Assembly (NCBI RefSeq): GCF_000517625.1
Contig: NZ_CP007055.1
Coordinates: forward strand, 2,170,001-2,234,000
Length of the DNA stretch: 64,000 nt
Direction of reading: 5' to 3'
From: Halostagnicola larsenii XH-48
GTDB lineage: Archaea > Halobacteriota > Halobacteria > Halobacteriales > Natrialbaceae
Part shown: positions 27,133 to 48,387 of the stretch, one piece after another
Layout: the number at the start of each line of letters is the position of its first letter
How positions within the stretch are numbered: the stretch's first letter is position 1
Notes under the pieces: model-generated
What the model was told of the DNA's origin: nothing
Database searches by the model: none
The model's input: the letters and a program-made list of their open reading frames with translations, nothing else
Position numbers and translations under genes: made by a program

Positions 27133-28299
27133 ATGTACAGAATAACCGCGATCGCACTCGCAGCGTTGTTGATGACCGCGACGCTCCCAGCCGCCGCCAT
27201 CGGCGGGGTTGCGGGCGCAGGCCCACAGGAATCGTCCCAATCGATGGCCGCCGATGGTGACGCCTACGCGGGAACGCACGTCGCGTTCGAGACGTCGAAC
27301 ACCGCGGTGACGAACTACAGCGTCGGCGGCGAGGCGGTGTTCGAGAACGTGAGCGTCGACTCCCAGAGCGACCACGAAAGCGAGACGGGAATCGGGAGCA
27401 GTTCGGGGCTCTCGGCGGTGACGAACGTCTCCGGACTCGGACTCACGATAGACGCACAAACGGAGACGCGAGTGAAAATCGCATCCGAGGGATCCGCGTC
27501 GATGAGCGCCCACGACACCGAACGGGGTATCCTCACCGTCGACGCCGGCAGCGAGTCCCAGTACGTCGAGGCGACGCTCGCCGAGGGAGCCAACGCGACG
27601 GCCGAGAGCGACGGCAACGCTGTCGTCGTCGAAAGCGAAAATCGTAGCGGAGCCTTCGTCATCGCCGGCGACGGCGAGGTCGACGTCAACGACGAAGGCG
27701 ACGTGACGGCCGAACTCGGCAGTAACTCGACGCTCGTCTTCCGATCGTACGACGAGGGCGAGCGCGACGAGGCGGCCAAAGAGCAGGAACGGCTGATCGC
27801 AAACGGTACGGCGACGGCCGAGGTGTACGCCGACCACCGAGACGGCGAGCGGGTCGCCGACGTGGCTACCTACGGTGAGGATATCGCCGTCGAGACGAAG
27901 GCCGAAAGCGAGGAACGACTCGAGATGACCGCCGAGCGCGCCCAGAGGGAGGGAACGGTCATCATCGCGACGGTCTCCGAGACGGCGATCGACGGGGCCG
28001 AATCGGCCGACGACCTCGAGGTAACCGTCGACGGCGAGGCCGCCGCCGAGGCGTCCTCGTACAGCGAGCTCGAGGGTGCCATCGGCGGCGACCAGTCGCG
28101 GTACATGGTGACCCAGTCGGGCGAGGCCGACGCATCGGCTGACGTCCTCATCGCCGTCAACCACTTCTCGGAGCGAGACGTGGCGGTCCAGCCCGCGAGC
28201 GCCGACGGCGGTGCACTCGGCGACAGCGTGCCCGGCTTCGGCGTCGGCGTTTCGGTCGTCACGCTGGTGTCGGCCGCGGCCGCTCGAGTCCGCAGCTAA
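27133..28299 (+). CDS. Secreted surface protein with PGF-CTERM anchor
   Basis: 388 residues. The Sec-type signal 'YRITAIALAALLMTATLPAAAIGGVAGA' (listed in part) is followed by an Asn-X-Ser/Thr-rich, acidic, beta-rich ectodomain. The C-terminus 'VPGFGVGVSVVTLVSAAA' then 'RVRS' is a PGF-CTERM signal for archaeosortase processing and lipid attachment at the cell surface. The middle contains an Ala/Glu helical stretch around 'DEAAKEQERLIANGTATAEVY'-like sequence. No enzymatic motif is seen. It stands alone between kdgK and a long non-coding spacer. Confidence 0.82.
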   Translation: MYRITAIALAALLMTATLPAAAIGGVAGAGPQESSQSMAADGDAYAGTHVAFETSNTAVTNYSVGGEAVFENVSVDSQSDHESETGIGSSSGLSAVTNVSGLGLTIDAQTETRVKIASEGSASMSAHDTERGILTVDAGSESQYVEATLAEGANATAESDGNAVVVESENRSGAFVIAGDGEVDVNDEGDVTAELGSNSTLVFRSYDEGERDEAAKEQERLIANGTATAEVYADHRDGERVADVATYGEDIAVETKAESEERLEMTAERAQREGTVIIATVSETAIDGAESADDLEVTVDGEAAAEASSYSELEGAIGGDQSRYMVTQSGEADASADVLIAVNHFSERDVAVQPASADGGALGDSVPGFGVGVSVVTLVSAAAARVRS

Positions 28300-28773
28300 T
28301 CGGCGCGACGAGTGAACGCGAACGCTGGCCGGATCTTCGTCAGCAGAGTGAGTTTATCCAGTTTTTCGCCATCAGCGTACTCTATTTGGCCGGGAGGACG
28401 ACTCGAGCACCGCGAGAGCCGTTCGACCCGGGGAAGGGCAGGCTGACGGCTGGTCCTGGCGGATTGAAAGGGCGAAGCGGGCGCGGTTCGGAGCGAGTGA
28501 AGCGAGTGAGAACCGCGAATGCGAACGGGGAACGAGCGGGCTGAACAGCGTGAAGCCCGCGAACCAAGTGACCCGTGAGCGGTTTCGCGCTCGGATAGGG
28601 CCGACACAGCGACCGCGAAACCGCGGAGGGCTTTCTATTTGTTCACTCTTCCAGAGCAAGTTCTGGTGTCGCACTCAAAACCATGAGACCTGAGTCGCTC
28701 AACTATCACCTTCAACTATCACCTTCTGTACTAGCCGCGGAACGATTTTTTGTGTCGGCGCGAAAGTCGACGT
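28300..28773. other. Intergenic region with a multi-hairpin element
   Basis: 474 bp without a credible gene. It contains a structured, GC-rich repeat-like element (about 28459-28640). The final ~100 bp are less GC-rich and should hold the promoter of the FAD oxidoreductase. Confidence 0.6.
28459..28640. ncRNA. Candidate structured RNA or non-autonomous element, three nested hairpins
   Basis: A 5' GGATTGAAAG and a 3' CTTTCTATT can pair through GAAAG/CTTTC (28466-28470 and 28631-28635). Inside are three perfect hairpins: CGCGGTTC/GAACCGCG (28482-28489, 28510-28517), GCGGGCT/AGCCCGC (28536-28542, 28554-28560) and GCGGTTTCGCG/CGCGAAACCGC (28579-28589, 28614-28624). The shape is a closed multi-branch. 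It could be an RNA gene, a MITE or a remnant related to IS200/IS605-type ends. Strand is unknown. Confidence 0.4.
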
Positions 28774-30309
28774 ATGGTACACGTCGCGATCATCGGTGGG
28801 TACGGCAGCGCGGGCGTCGCCGTCGCCGACGAACTGGTCGACCGGGCGGACGAAGACTCCGAACGCGACCTCGAGCTAACGCTGATCGACGACGGCGAGC
28901 CGGGCGGCGGCCTCTGCATTCTCAGGGGGTGTATGCCCTCGAAGGACGTTCTCTCGGCCGCACAGCACCGGTATCAGGTCAGACACGACGACCGACTCGA
29001 GGGGGTTCCCGAGGCCGTTCCCGAGCGCGTCGTCGCCCAGAAAGACGACCATATCTCCGGGTTCGCACAGCACCGCCGGGATCACGTCCACGAACTCGCC
29101 GAGCGCGAGAACGTCGAGTTCATCCACGACACCGCCGAATTCGTCGACGACCGCGTGCTCGAGGTCGGCGATCGAACCCTCGAGCCCGATTACGTCGTCA
29201 TCGCGACGGGCTCGGCGGTCAACGTCCCCGACCTGCCCGGCATCGAGGACGTCCCGTTTTCGACCAGCGCGGACGTACTCGACGCCACCGAGTTCCCCGA
29301 GAGCGCGATCGTGATGGGCTTTGGCTACATCGGCCTCGAACTCGTCCCGTACCTCTCGGAGGTCGGCGGCGTCGATGTCACGGTCATCGAACACGACGAG
29401 CACCCCCTCGATGAGATGGAACCAGCATACGGCGAGACGATTCTCGAGCTCTACCGCGAGCACTTCGACGTGGAGATCCTCACGGAGACCGACGAGAAAC
29501 GACTCGAGGCTATCGGATCGGGTGGCGATGCCGGCAGTACCGGCGATGAGGCGACAACCGCTGCCGACGCGACGGCGGCCGCGTCCGACGGCGTCCGCCT
29601 GCACGTCGACCGAGACGGCGTCGAAGAAACGCTCGAGGCCGAGGAGCTGTACCTCTTCACCGGTCGTCGCCCCAACGTGGACGGCCTGGGCCTCGAGAAT
29701 ACGGCGCTCGAGGTCGGAGAGGGGTGGGTCGGCTCGACGATGCAGGCTCGCGACGACGAGCGCGTGTTCGTAGTCGGCGACGTCAACGGGAGAGAGCCGA
29801 TCTTACACGTCGCCAAAGAACAGGGGTTCGCGGCCGGACGAAACGTCTTGCGTCACGACCGCGGGCAGGATCTCGAGGCGTACGCGAACGTGCCCCACCA
29901 CGTCATCTTCTCGGGGCTCGGCGTCTACCCATTCGCCCGGATCGGACACACGCCGGCGACGGCAGGCGAGAGCGACATGGACACCATCGTCGTCTCGAGC
30001 GATGCGTCCTCCGAGGGCGTGTTCAAGTCGAAGAATCACCCGGAGGGGCGCGCGACGCTCGTTGTCAACGCCGAGGACGGCTCGGTATTGGGCTATCAGG
30101 GCCTTCACCTCCACGCGGATGTGATGGCCAAGACGATGCAACTGGCCGTCGAGATGGCACTGGACGTTCGCGAAATTCCGAGTCGCGCCTACCACCCGAC
30201 GACACCCGAAATCCTCGACAGTCTCCTGCGGGCGGCCGAGGCAGAACTCGAGGAGCGATCCGAGAACGGTGCCGCCGGACCGCCCGCGGATGCCGACCGC
30301 TCCGAATAG
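28774..30309 (+). CDS. FAD-dependent pyridine nucleotide-disulfide oxidoreductase
   Basis: 511 residues of the dihydrolipoamide-dehydrogenase/mercuric-reductase class. The FAD fold 'VAIIGGYGSAGVAVADEL' is slightly unusual (GGYGSAG). The redox disulfide is Cys48-x4-Cys53 in 'GLCILRGCMPSK'. The NAD(P) domain has 'IVMGFGYIGLELVPYLSEVG', and 'VFVVGDVNGR' is the second FAD motif. The C-terminal 'AYHPTTPEILDSLL' supplies the partner-subunit His-Glu pair. A Gly/Ala/Asp/Thr insertion sits near 245-275. The substrate is unknown; no 2-oxoacid dehydrogenase genes are adjacent. A 27-bp stop-codon duplication follows. Confidence 0.88.
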   Translation: MVHVAIIGGYGSAGVAVADELVDRADEDSERDLELTLIDDGEPGGGLCILRGCMPSKDVLSAAQHRYQVRHDDRLEGVPEAVPERVVAQKDDHISGFAQHRRDHVHELAERENVEFIHDTAEFVDDRVLEVGDRTLEPDYVVIATGSAVNVPDLPGIEDVPFSTSADVLDATEFPESAIVMGFGYIGLELVPYLSEVGGVDVTVIEHDEHPLDEMEPAYGETILELYREHFDVEILTETDEKRLEAIGSGGDAGSTGDEATTAADATAAASDGVRLHVDRDGVEETLEAEELYLFTGRRPNVDGLGLENTALEVGEGWVGSTMQARDDERVFVVGDVNGREPILHVAKEQGFAAGRNVLRHDRGQDLEAYANVPHHVIFSGLGVYPFARIGHTPATAGESDMDTIVVSSDASSEGVFKSKNHPEGRATLVVNAEDGSVLGYQGLHLHADVMAKTMQLAVEMALDVREIPSRAYHPTTPEILDSLLRAAEAELEERSENGAAGPPADADRSE

Positions 30310-48088: not shown

Positions 48089-48387
48089 GCGAGGTTCTCA
48101 CTCGCTTCGCTCGTTCCGAACCTCGTAAGGGACGCGGAACCGACGGTTCCGCGGGAAGGAGAGCGGGGCGCGTTCGCGCCCGCGAGCGAGGCTCGAGAAC
48201 ACATCAACCAGCCAGCCGACGGGATAGCGAACGACCGACTGTTTCGACGATTTTTTGCGAACGAGTCTCGCGAGGGGTGACTCGAGACGGGCGAGAGACG
48301 ACACGCTCTGGGGCCACACAGGCAGTGATCGGGAATCAGTCGTGGGCGCTCACCGAGTAGCGAGAAAATCGCCGCGTCGCAGAAGGG
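48089..48387. other. Downstream spacer of thermosome with stacked hairpins
   Basis: 299 bp with no gene. Three hairpins follow the stop codon: CGAGGTTC/GAACCTCG (48090-48097, 48118-48125), GCGGAACC/GGTTCCGC (48134-48141, 48145-48152) and GGGCGCG/CGCGCCC (48166-48172, 48175-48181). They are GC-only stems without T-tracts, so not typical archaeal terminators. Confidence 0.55.

Follow-up and report, generated by a model that had tools for sequence, protein, structure and literature searches.

A modular, structured intergenic element of haloarchaea with a conserved core, interchangeable tails and a putative role at RNA 3' ends

The ends of IS200/IS605 elements and omega RNA carry a hairpin arm comparable in shape to the one reported here. 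Unlike these, the element family described below has neither a nearby tnpB nor an Rfam match. A sequence-only reading of the locus had listed an IS200/IS605 derivative among its hypotheses; however, tblastn searches with a single haloarchaeal TnpB fragment and a single TnpA (run without a positive control) detected no tnpA or tnpB in the window or closer than about 1.5 kb to 237 copies of the element, and an IS605 origin was rejected on this basis. The one IS200/IS605 tnpA query also served as the probe for a RAYT-type partner in these neighbourhoods, with a match at 0 of 237 loci.

The family is close in kind to the REP/BIME repeats of bacteria, which are short, palindromic, intergenic and multicopy and often lie near gene 3' ends (see RepRanger, PMC12306157; the available part of its text holds no names beginning with Halo or Natr), and to the haloarchaeal repeats that are dispersed without a transposase, namely, the PATEs, MITEs, and SMRs of Haloquadratum walsbyi, which have palindromes near their ends (available part of PMC3119063). 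PATEs are described there as resembling IS605 ends, whereas the 237 copies above have no such genes beside them. Compared with REP/BIME sequences, our family is larger, and unlike the H. walsbyi repeats, it has core sites common to several genera. Its modular core-plus-tail make-up and its invariant G-rich strand set it apart from both kinds. A further likeness is to haloarchaeal termination signals: in Haloferax volcanii, intergenic termination sites show T stretches that end at C; in a reporter, T5C reached 95%, and one hairpin that was tested produced 59% termination on its own (available part of PMC7237163). In the present family, too, a hairpin precedes a short run of T with a final C, but in contrast to the signals described in that text, the run is only T3, a long 5' core is conserved, and conserved sequence extends beyond CTTTC.

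Here, we define a structured intergenic element in the window, a stretch of 64,000 nucleotides from Halostagnicola larsenii XH-48, and trace it through one haloarchaeal family, where 99 of 125 genomes carry matches. It is absent from Rfam (gathering and relaxed scans, E up to 0.5 and 1, gave only tRNA above threshold, along with weak unrelated matches), and no prior description of the repeat family was found in open PMC text.

Window locus and type-2 core

The element lies in a spacer between a gene ending at 28299 and a gene starting at 28774; these neighbours encode a protein of 375 aa that has no Pfam match and a pyridine-nucleotide-disulphide oxidoreductase. The element overlaps none of the called genes, as the sequence-only reading had stated. 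It spans 28388 to 28635 in the order GGCCGGGAG-hairpin-CGACCCGGGGAAGGGCAGGC, then CCTGGCGGATTGAAAGGGC, and finally GGGCTTTC (Table 1). The extent proposed earlier, 28459-28640, captured the right part, but the conserved element begins at 28388. All three perfect stems reported there were recovered, with 8 bp (28482-28489/28510-28517), 7 bp (28536-28542/28554-28560) and 11 bp (28579-28589/28614-28624), and the pair said to close them is present, but only five of its base pairs are perfect (GAAAG/CTTTC), the extension being imperfect. These hairpins are the arm tail shared with other copies, with GGATTGAAAG at 28461, TGAAAGGG at 28465, GGGCTTTC to 28635 and CTTTCTATT at 28631-28639, altered by a family of REP-like hairpins.

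Table 1. Parts of the element in the window
Feature	Position	Strand	Basis
Type-2 core, GGCCGGGAG-hairpin-CGACCCGGGGAAGGGCAGGC	28388..28443	+	covariance model R1 match
Basal helix, CCGGG/CCCGG	28390-28394 with 28427-28431	+	A1 pair counts, window-to-model alignment
Covarying core hairpin	28397-28401 with 28419-28423	+	A1 pair counts, window-to-model alignment
G-rich linker, ending in TGAAAGGGC	28432..28473	+	sequence; motif order same in related copies
Linker CAGG and CCTG, pairing possible	28439-28442 and 28455-28458	+	sequence
Arm (tail) module, GGATTGAAAGGGC to GGGCTTTCTATT; element reported earlier	28461..28639	+	sequence; frame common to other copies
REP-like hairpin CGCGGTTC-[GGAGCGAGTGAAGCGAGTGA]-GAACCGCG, nested in arm	28482..28517	+	dispersed in 95/125 family genomes
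7-bp hairpin, part of REP-like insert	28536..28560	+	stem search
Segment between 8-bp direct repeats ACCGCGAA (28512-28519, 28612-28619)	28512..28619	+	absent in congener G001
11-bp arm stem	28579..28624	+	stem search
Conserved 3' end GGGCTTTC	28628..28635	+	kept in type-2 variety A, most type-1 copies

Disjoint stems of 11, 8, and 7 bp occurred in none of 2000 dinucleotide-preserving shuffles, and any stem of at least 11 bp occurred in 9 of 2000. Folding energy is only mildly unusual and alone would not single the element out (28440-28660, z -1.58, with 13 of 200 shuffles folding equally well; 28385-28645, z -2.10, with 5 of 200).

The 5' core was modelled from an alignment (A1) of 39 type-2 cores, in which the window's genus and locus L340 were left out. 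The resulting covariance model, R1, matches the window at 28388-28443 with 69.5 bits (E 6.3e-17), the next best match having E 0.33. Two-sided changes occur in all five pairs of the core hairpin according to the A1 pair counts; the covariation score of the whole 10-pair structure is 0.283, against 0.124 for shuffled and at most 0.098 for slid controls, with all two-sided changes falling in the hairpin. Near-invariant as it is, the basal helix carries little covariation information, and the G-rich single-stranded segments are invariant across the 39 sequences. The element is thus built from a 5' core, consisting of a covarying hairpin and an invariant G-rich strand, followed by interchangeable tails.

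R1 matches were found in the 99 family genomes with at least 1 to 18 per genome among the matches listed, counts that are lower bounds because 45 candidates were scored per genome. The core pattern GGCCGGGAGN{30,60}GGGGAAGGGCAGG matched 30 of 195 genomes of the order and 0 controls. In a phylum-wide sample of 196 genomes, strong R1 matches are confined to the order: eight order genomes match (best E at most 4e-11), and six other genomes give only weak matches (E 2e-4 to 9e-4). For the proposal of a dispersed, structured haloarchaeal intergenic element, homologues and covariation were among the checks set beforehand, and both were found. The accompanying suggestion that other elements share its start holds in a looser form: the exact GATTGAAAGGGC is rare (8 of 125 family genomes, in 10 places, some apparently in coding sequence), but many copies of the frame TGAAAGGG(G)C...GGGCTTTC exist.

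A search for insertion polymorphism, also proposed in that reading, revealed presence/absence variation. blastn with 28455-28645 identified the orthologous site upstream of the oxidoreductase gene in two of four congeners (G001 and G004), of which G001 lacks 100 bases between the ACCGCGAA repeats and reads straight across one repeat copy. In G002, the identical gene pair is 85 bp apart, compared with 474 bp in the window, and the element is absent; G003 gave no blastn match to this region. At an orthologous site in another genus, the element is likewise present or absent.

Type-1 copies, tails and pairing

A second kind of core, type 1, was defined by the pattern GGCTGGGGAGGN{15,45}TGAAAGGGG, which occurs in 26 of 195 order genomes with up to 44 copies in one, the reversed control giving none. 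In GTDB contigs, at least 120 stretches match, and among the matches listed nearly all are haloarchaeal; L127, L154, L189, and L205 (three bacterial, one groundwater Euryarchaeota) are likely chance matches and were omitted from the type-1 counts. nhmmer with 155 type-1 sequences found no type-1 left domain (the GGCTGGGGAGG core) at 28388-28640, and R1 gave no match on 20 sources, mainly type-1 and plasmid loci. The two cores differ, and the arm is common to both. A G-quadruplex paper containing GGCTGGGGAGG (PMC7565180) was set aside as unrelated, the sequence in the available part of its text being from Hadesarchaea.

Tails vary on both cores. Variety A of type 2, with the arm tail, accounts for 16 of 45 copies, and GGGCTTTC is present in 16 of 16 of these TGAAAGG-type tails; in variety C, the core is followed by another tail, which carries GGAGGAGTGCTTTT. 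In type 1, GGGCTTTC lies within 420 nt in 156 of 174 copies, and conserved bases continue past CTTTC, which is unexpected for a bare terminator. The type-1 left domain also precedes a different tail. A further tail type, GCGGTCACAAGTGGTC...GCTGTTGCGGTC, takes the place of the arm after many of the type-1 left domains at L284-L303 (G281, G240, and G294).

Pairing in the arm and the hairpin is kept through compensatory change. With arms of less than 70 nt omitted (138 of 156 kept), type-1 arms pair at 9.4 of 10 positions with themselves, compared with 6.9 with the arms of other copies; 121 of 138 self-pair at 9 or more, compared with 11.7%, and there are 93 distinct left 10-mers. On the + strand, G-T pairs are more frequent than A-C pairs in each of three sets (12:6, p 0.24; 36:14, p 0.003; 9:1, p 0.02; only arms with at least 7 of 10 Watson-Crick pairs counted), which makes + the probable folding strand.

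Candidate roles

The copies are intergenic, and their wobble substitutions fit the + strand. Based on sequence, the element probably shapes RNA ends; the fuller reading that we tentatively prefer, and which we rate at somewhat less than an even chance, is a putative RNA-level 3'-end element (a terminator or insulator) acting on the + strand and spreading like REP sequences. According to this model, the transcript of the gene ending at 28299 would run into the element and the RNA would fold; the stable arm and the short T stretch ending in C would help to end or stabilise the transcript; such an ending would insulate the gene starting at 28774; and copies would multiply within lineages as REP-type repeats do. 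The family offers a ready entry point for studying how haloarchaeal transcripts end where genes lie close together.

This 3'-end reading derives from the wobble bias together with placement at gene ends: the hairpins are on the sense strand, near stop codons or between converging genes, with a short T run and C, which is consistent with a structured RNA at transcript ends. Neighbouring genes were taken from a codon-usage caller, both neighbours being called for 62 of 67 type-2 copies, of which 7 are composites and 55 solo. The downstream gene is antisense, its 3' end facing the element, in 45 of the 55 solo copies, compared with 99 of 235 background spacers (at least 200 bp, from long loci), the 55 copies being non-independent because several sites recur beside the identical gene in different genera (shared C-terminal residues). 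The context classes are 23 "--", 22 "+-", 7 "-+" and 3 "++"; the window copy, 88 nt past a stop codon, belongs to the rare "++" class. Three further type-2 copies in the same genome are antisense to the downstream gene at a distance of 134-234 nt, and their tail contains a T4 tract (GCTTTTCATC); two of them lie 9 and 30 nt past the upstream stop codon.

Several observations argue against the 3'-end reading. The T stretch in the window is only TTTC (28632-28635), and type-1 copies show no orientation bias (41 "++", 36 "-+", 28 "--", and 25 "+-"; n = 130), a result identical under two gene callers. In the 23 "--" cases, the upstream gene points away, and a + strand transcript would need another origin. 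Moreover, the identical gene pair of G002 does without the element. A scan for bacterial-type terminators (a short hairpin plus at least five T in eight) found none in the element, and an E. coli-type terminator was rejected accordingly.

Because the element has spread within lineages and leaves empty sites, some copying process is required. The main rival remains a purely selfish element: non-autonomous mobile DNA (MITE, foldback or PATE-like) without a host role, whose arms would serve as ends that a trans-acting transposase recognises in single-stranded or cruciform DNA form. We regard it as unlikely, though a serious contender. The empty site of G002 and the variable site in another genus fit it, as do the random orientation of type-1 copies, 0 of 156 of which lie within genes, and the way they cluster by genome (the tree has 20 label changes, compared with at least 58 in 500 shuffles; mean identity 0.715 within and 0.621 between genomes; 91 copies, 11 groups). 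It is also consistent with type-1/type-2 head-to-head arrangements, of which 22 instances, including repeats of the same site, reduce to 11 distinct composites with both ends, 409-580 bp long and with mirrored GAAAGCCC/GGGCTTTC ends. On the other hand, the recurrence of type-2 sites beside the same genes in several genera fits retention better than recent hopping, no target duplication was recognised by eye, the tnpA/tnpB searches around the 237 copies were negative, and outer inverted repeats occur in one species only, Halopiger goleimassiliensis (scores of 16.5, 13, and 10, compared with a cross-pair mean of 8.9 and maximum of 17.5). At L117-L120 of that species, inverted ATTYCGGGTGTGRATTGATC-like flanks lie about 70-100 bp outside the composite arms; three of these four loci show them clearly.

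An independent small RNA gene, with a product acting in trans (for instance, bound by an RNA-binding protein), would account for the invariant single-stranded G-rich segments of the 39 cores, which exceed the needs of a terminator, and for the wobble bias on the + strand. We consider it improbable, since neither a TATA-like signal nor an AT peak at a fixed distance was found ahead of the core in 58 solo copies, most copies border on the end of a gene, and the tails are interchangeable. Least probable in our view, and quite doubtful, is a role at the DNA level, as a G-quadruplex or as a hairpin bound by a nucleoid protein or a topoisomerase, in the manner proposed for bacterial REPs. The type-1 linker, with 51% G and at least four GG tracts in every core, speaks for it, and 137 of 174 type-1 cores have a G4Hunter score of at least 1.2, but the window's own linker scores just 0.72, and the wobble bias suits RNA better than DNA.

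Plasmid arm and REP-like hairpins

The TGAAAGGG(G)C-arm-GGGCTTTC tail follows the type-1 core, the type-2 core, and also a conserved noncoding region of about 450 bp, which on many haloarchaeal plasmids lies divergent to a gene for an OB-fold/RPA-like protein of about 290 aa (L350-L353 and L356-L363). Among the 12 plasmid regions inspected, the arm has both ends in 9, is truncated in 1, degenerate in 1 and lacking in 1. The RPA-like protein has tblastn matches in 190 plasmid records, weak Pfam OB-fold matches, and an NCBIfam assignment as replication factor A. The region itself, which belongs to no Rfam family, could be a single-stranded DNA promoter, an origin or a structured RNA. The type-1 pattern was found in 0 viral contigs, and phages gave no match to the plasmid arm region. 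The common arm ties chromosomal repeats to a conserved plasmid region beside a gene for a single-stranded DNA-binding protein. Because the same tail ends all three, it is conceivable that a dedicated protein recognises it and that it has moved from plasmids to chromosomes; that the arm is a module of a haloarchaeal RNA toolkit on chromosomes and plasmids, with such recognition and spread, is a speculative idea that we think improbable.

The arm in the window is altered by the REP-like insert. Its hairpin at 28482-28517 is, like REP sequences, a short extragenic palindrome with many copies, here nested in a larger element, and some of the genomes with matches carry it in tandem arrays. Such arrays, with units of about 16 and 50-77 bp, were seen at L011, L023, L025, and G029:C1:1582576-1582941. 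In many copies, including 28482-28517, REP-like and core hairpins have loops with the sequence GCGAGC-GAA-GCGAGC or CGAGC...GCGAG. These are seen on the + strand only and, by analogy with GNA loops, may be suited to tandem sheared G-A pairs. A second REP-like hairpin, followed by another GC-rich palindrome, is located in the window at 48090-48125 on the - strand.
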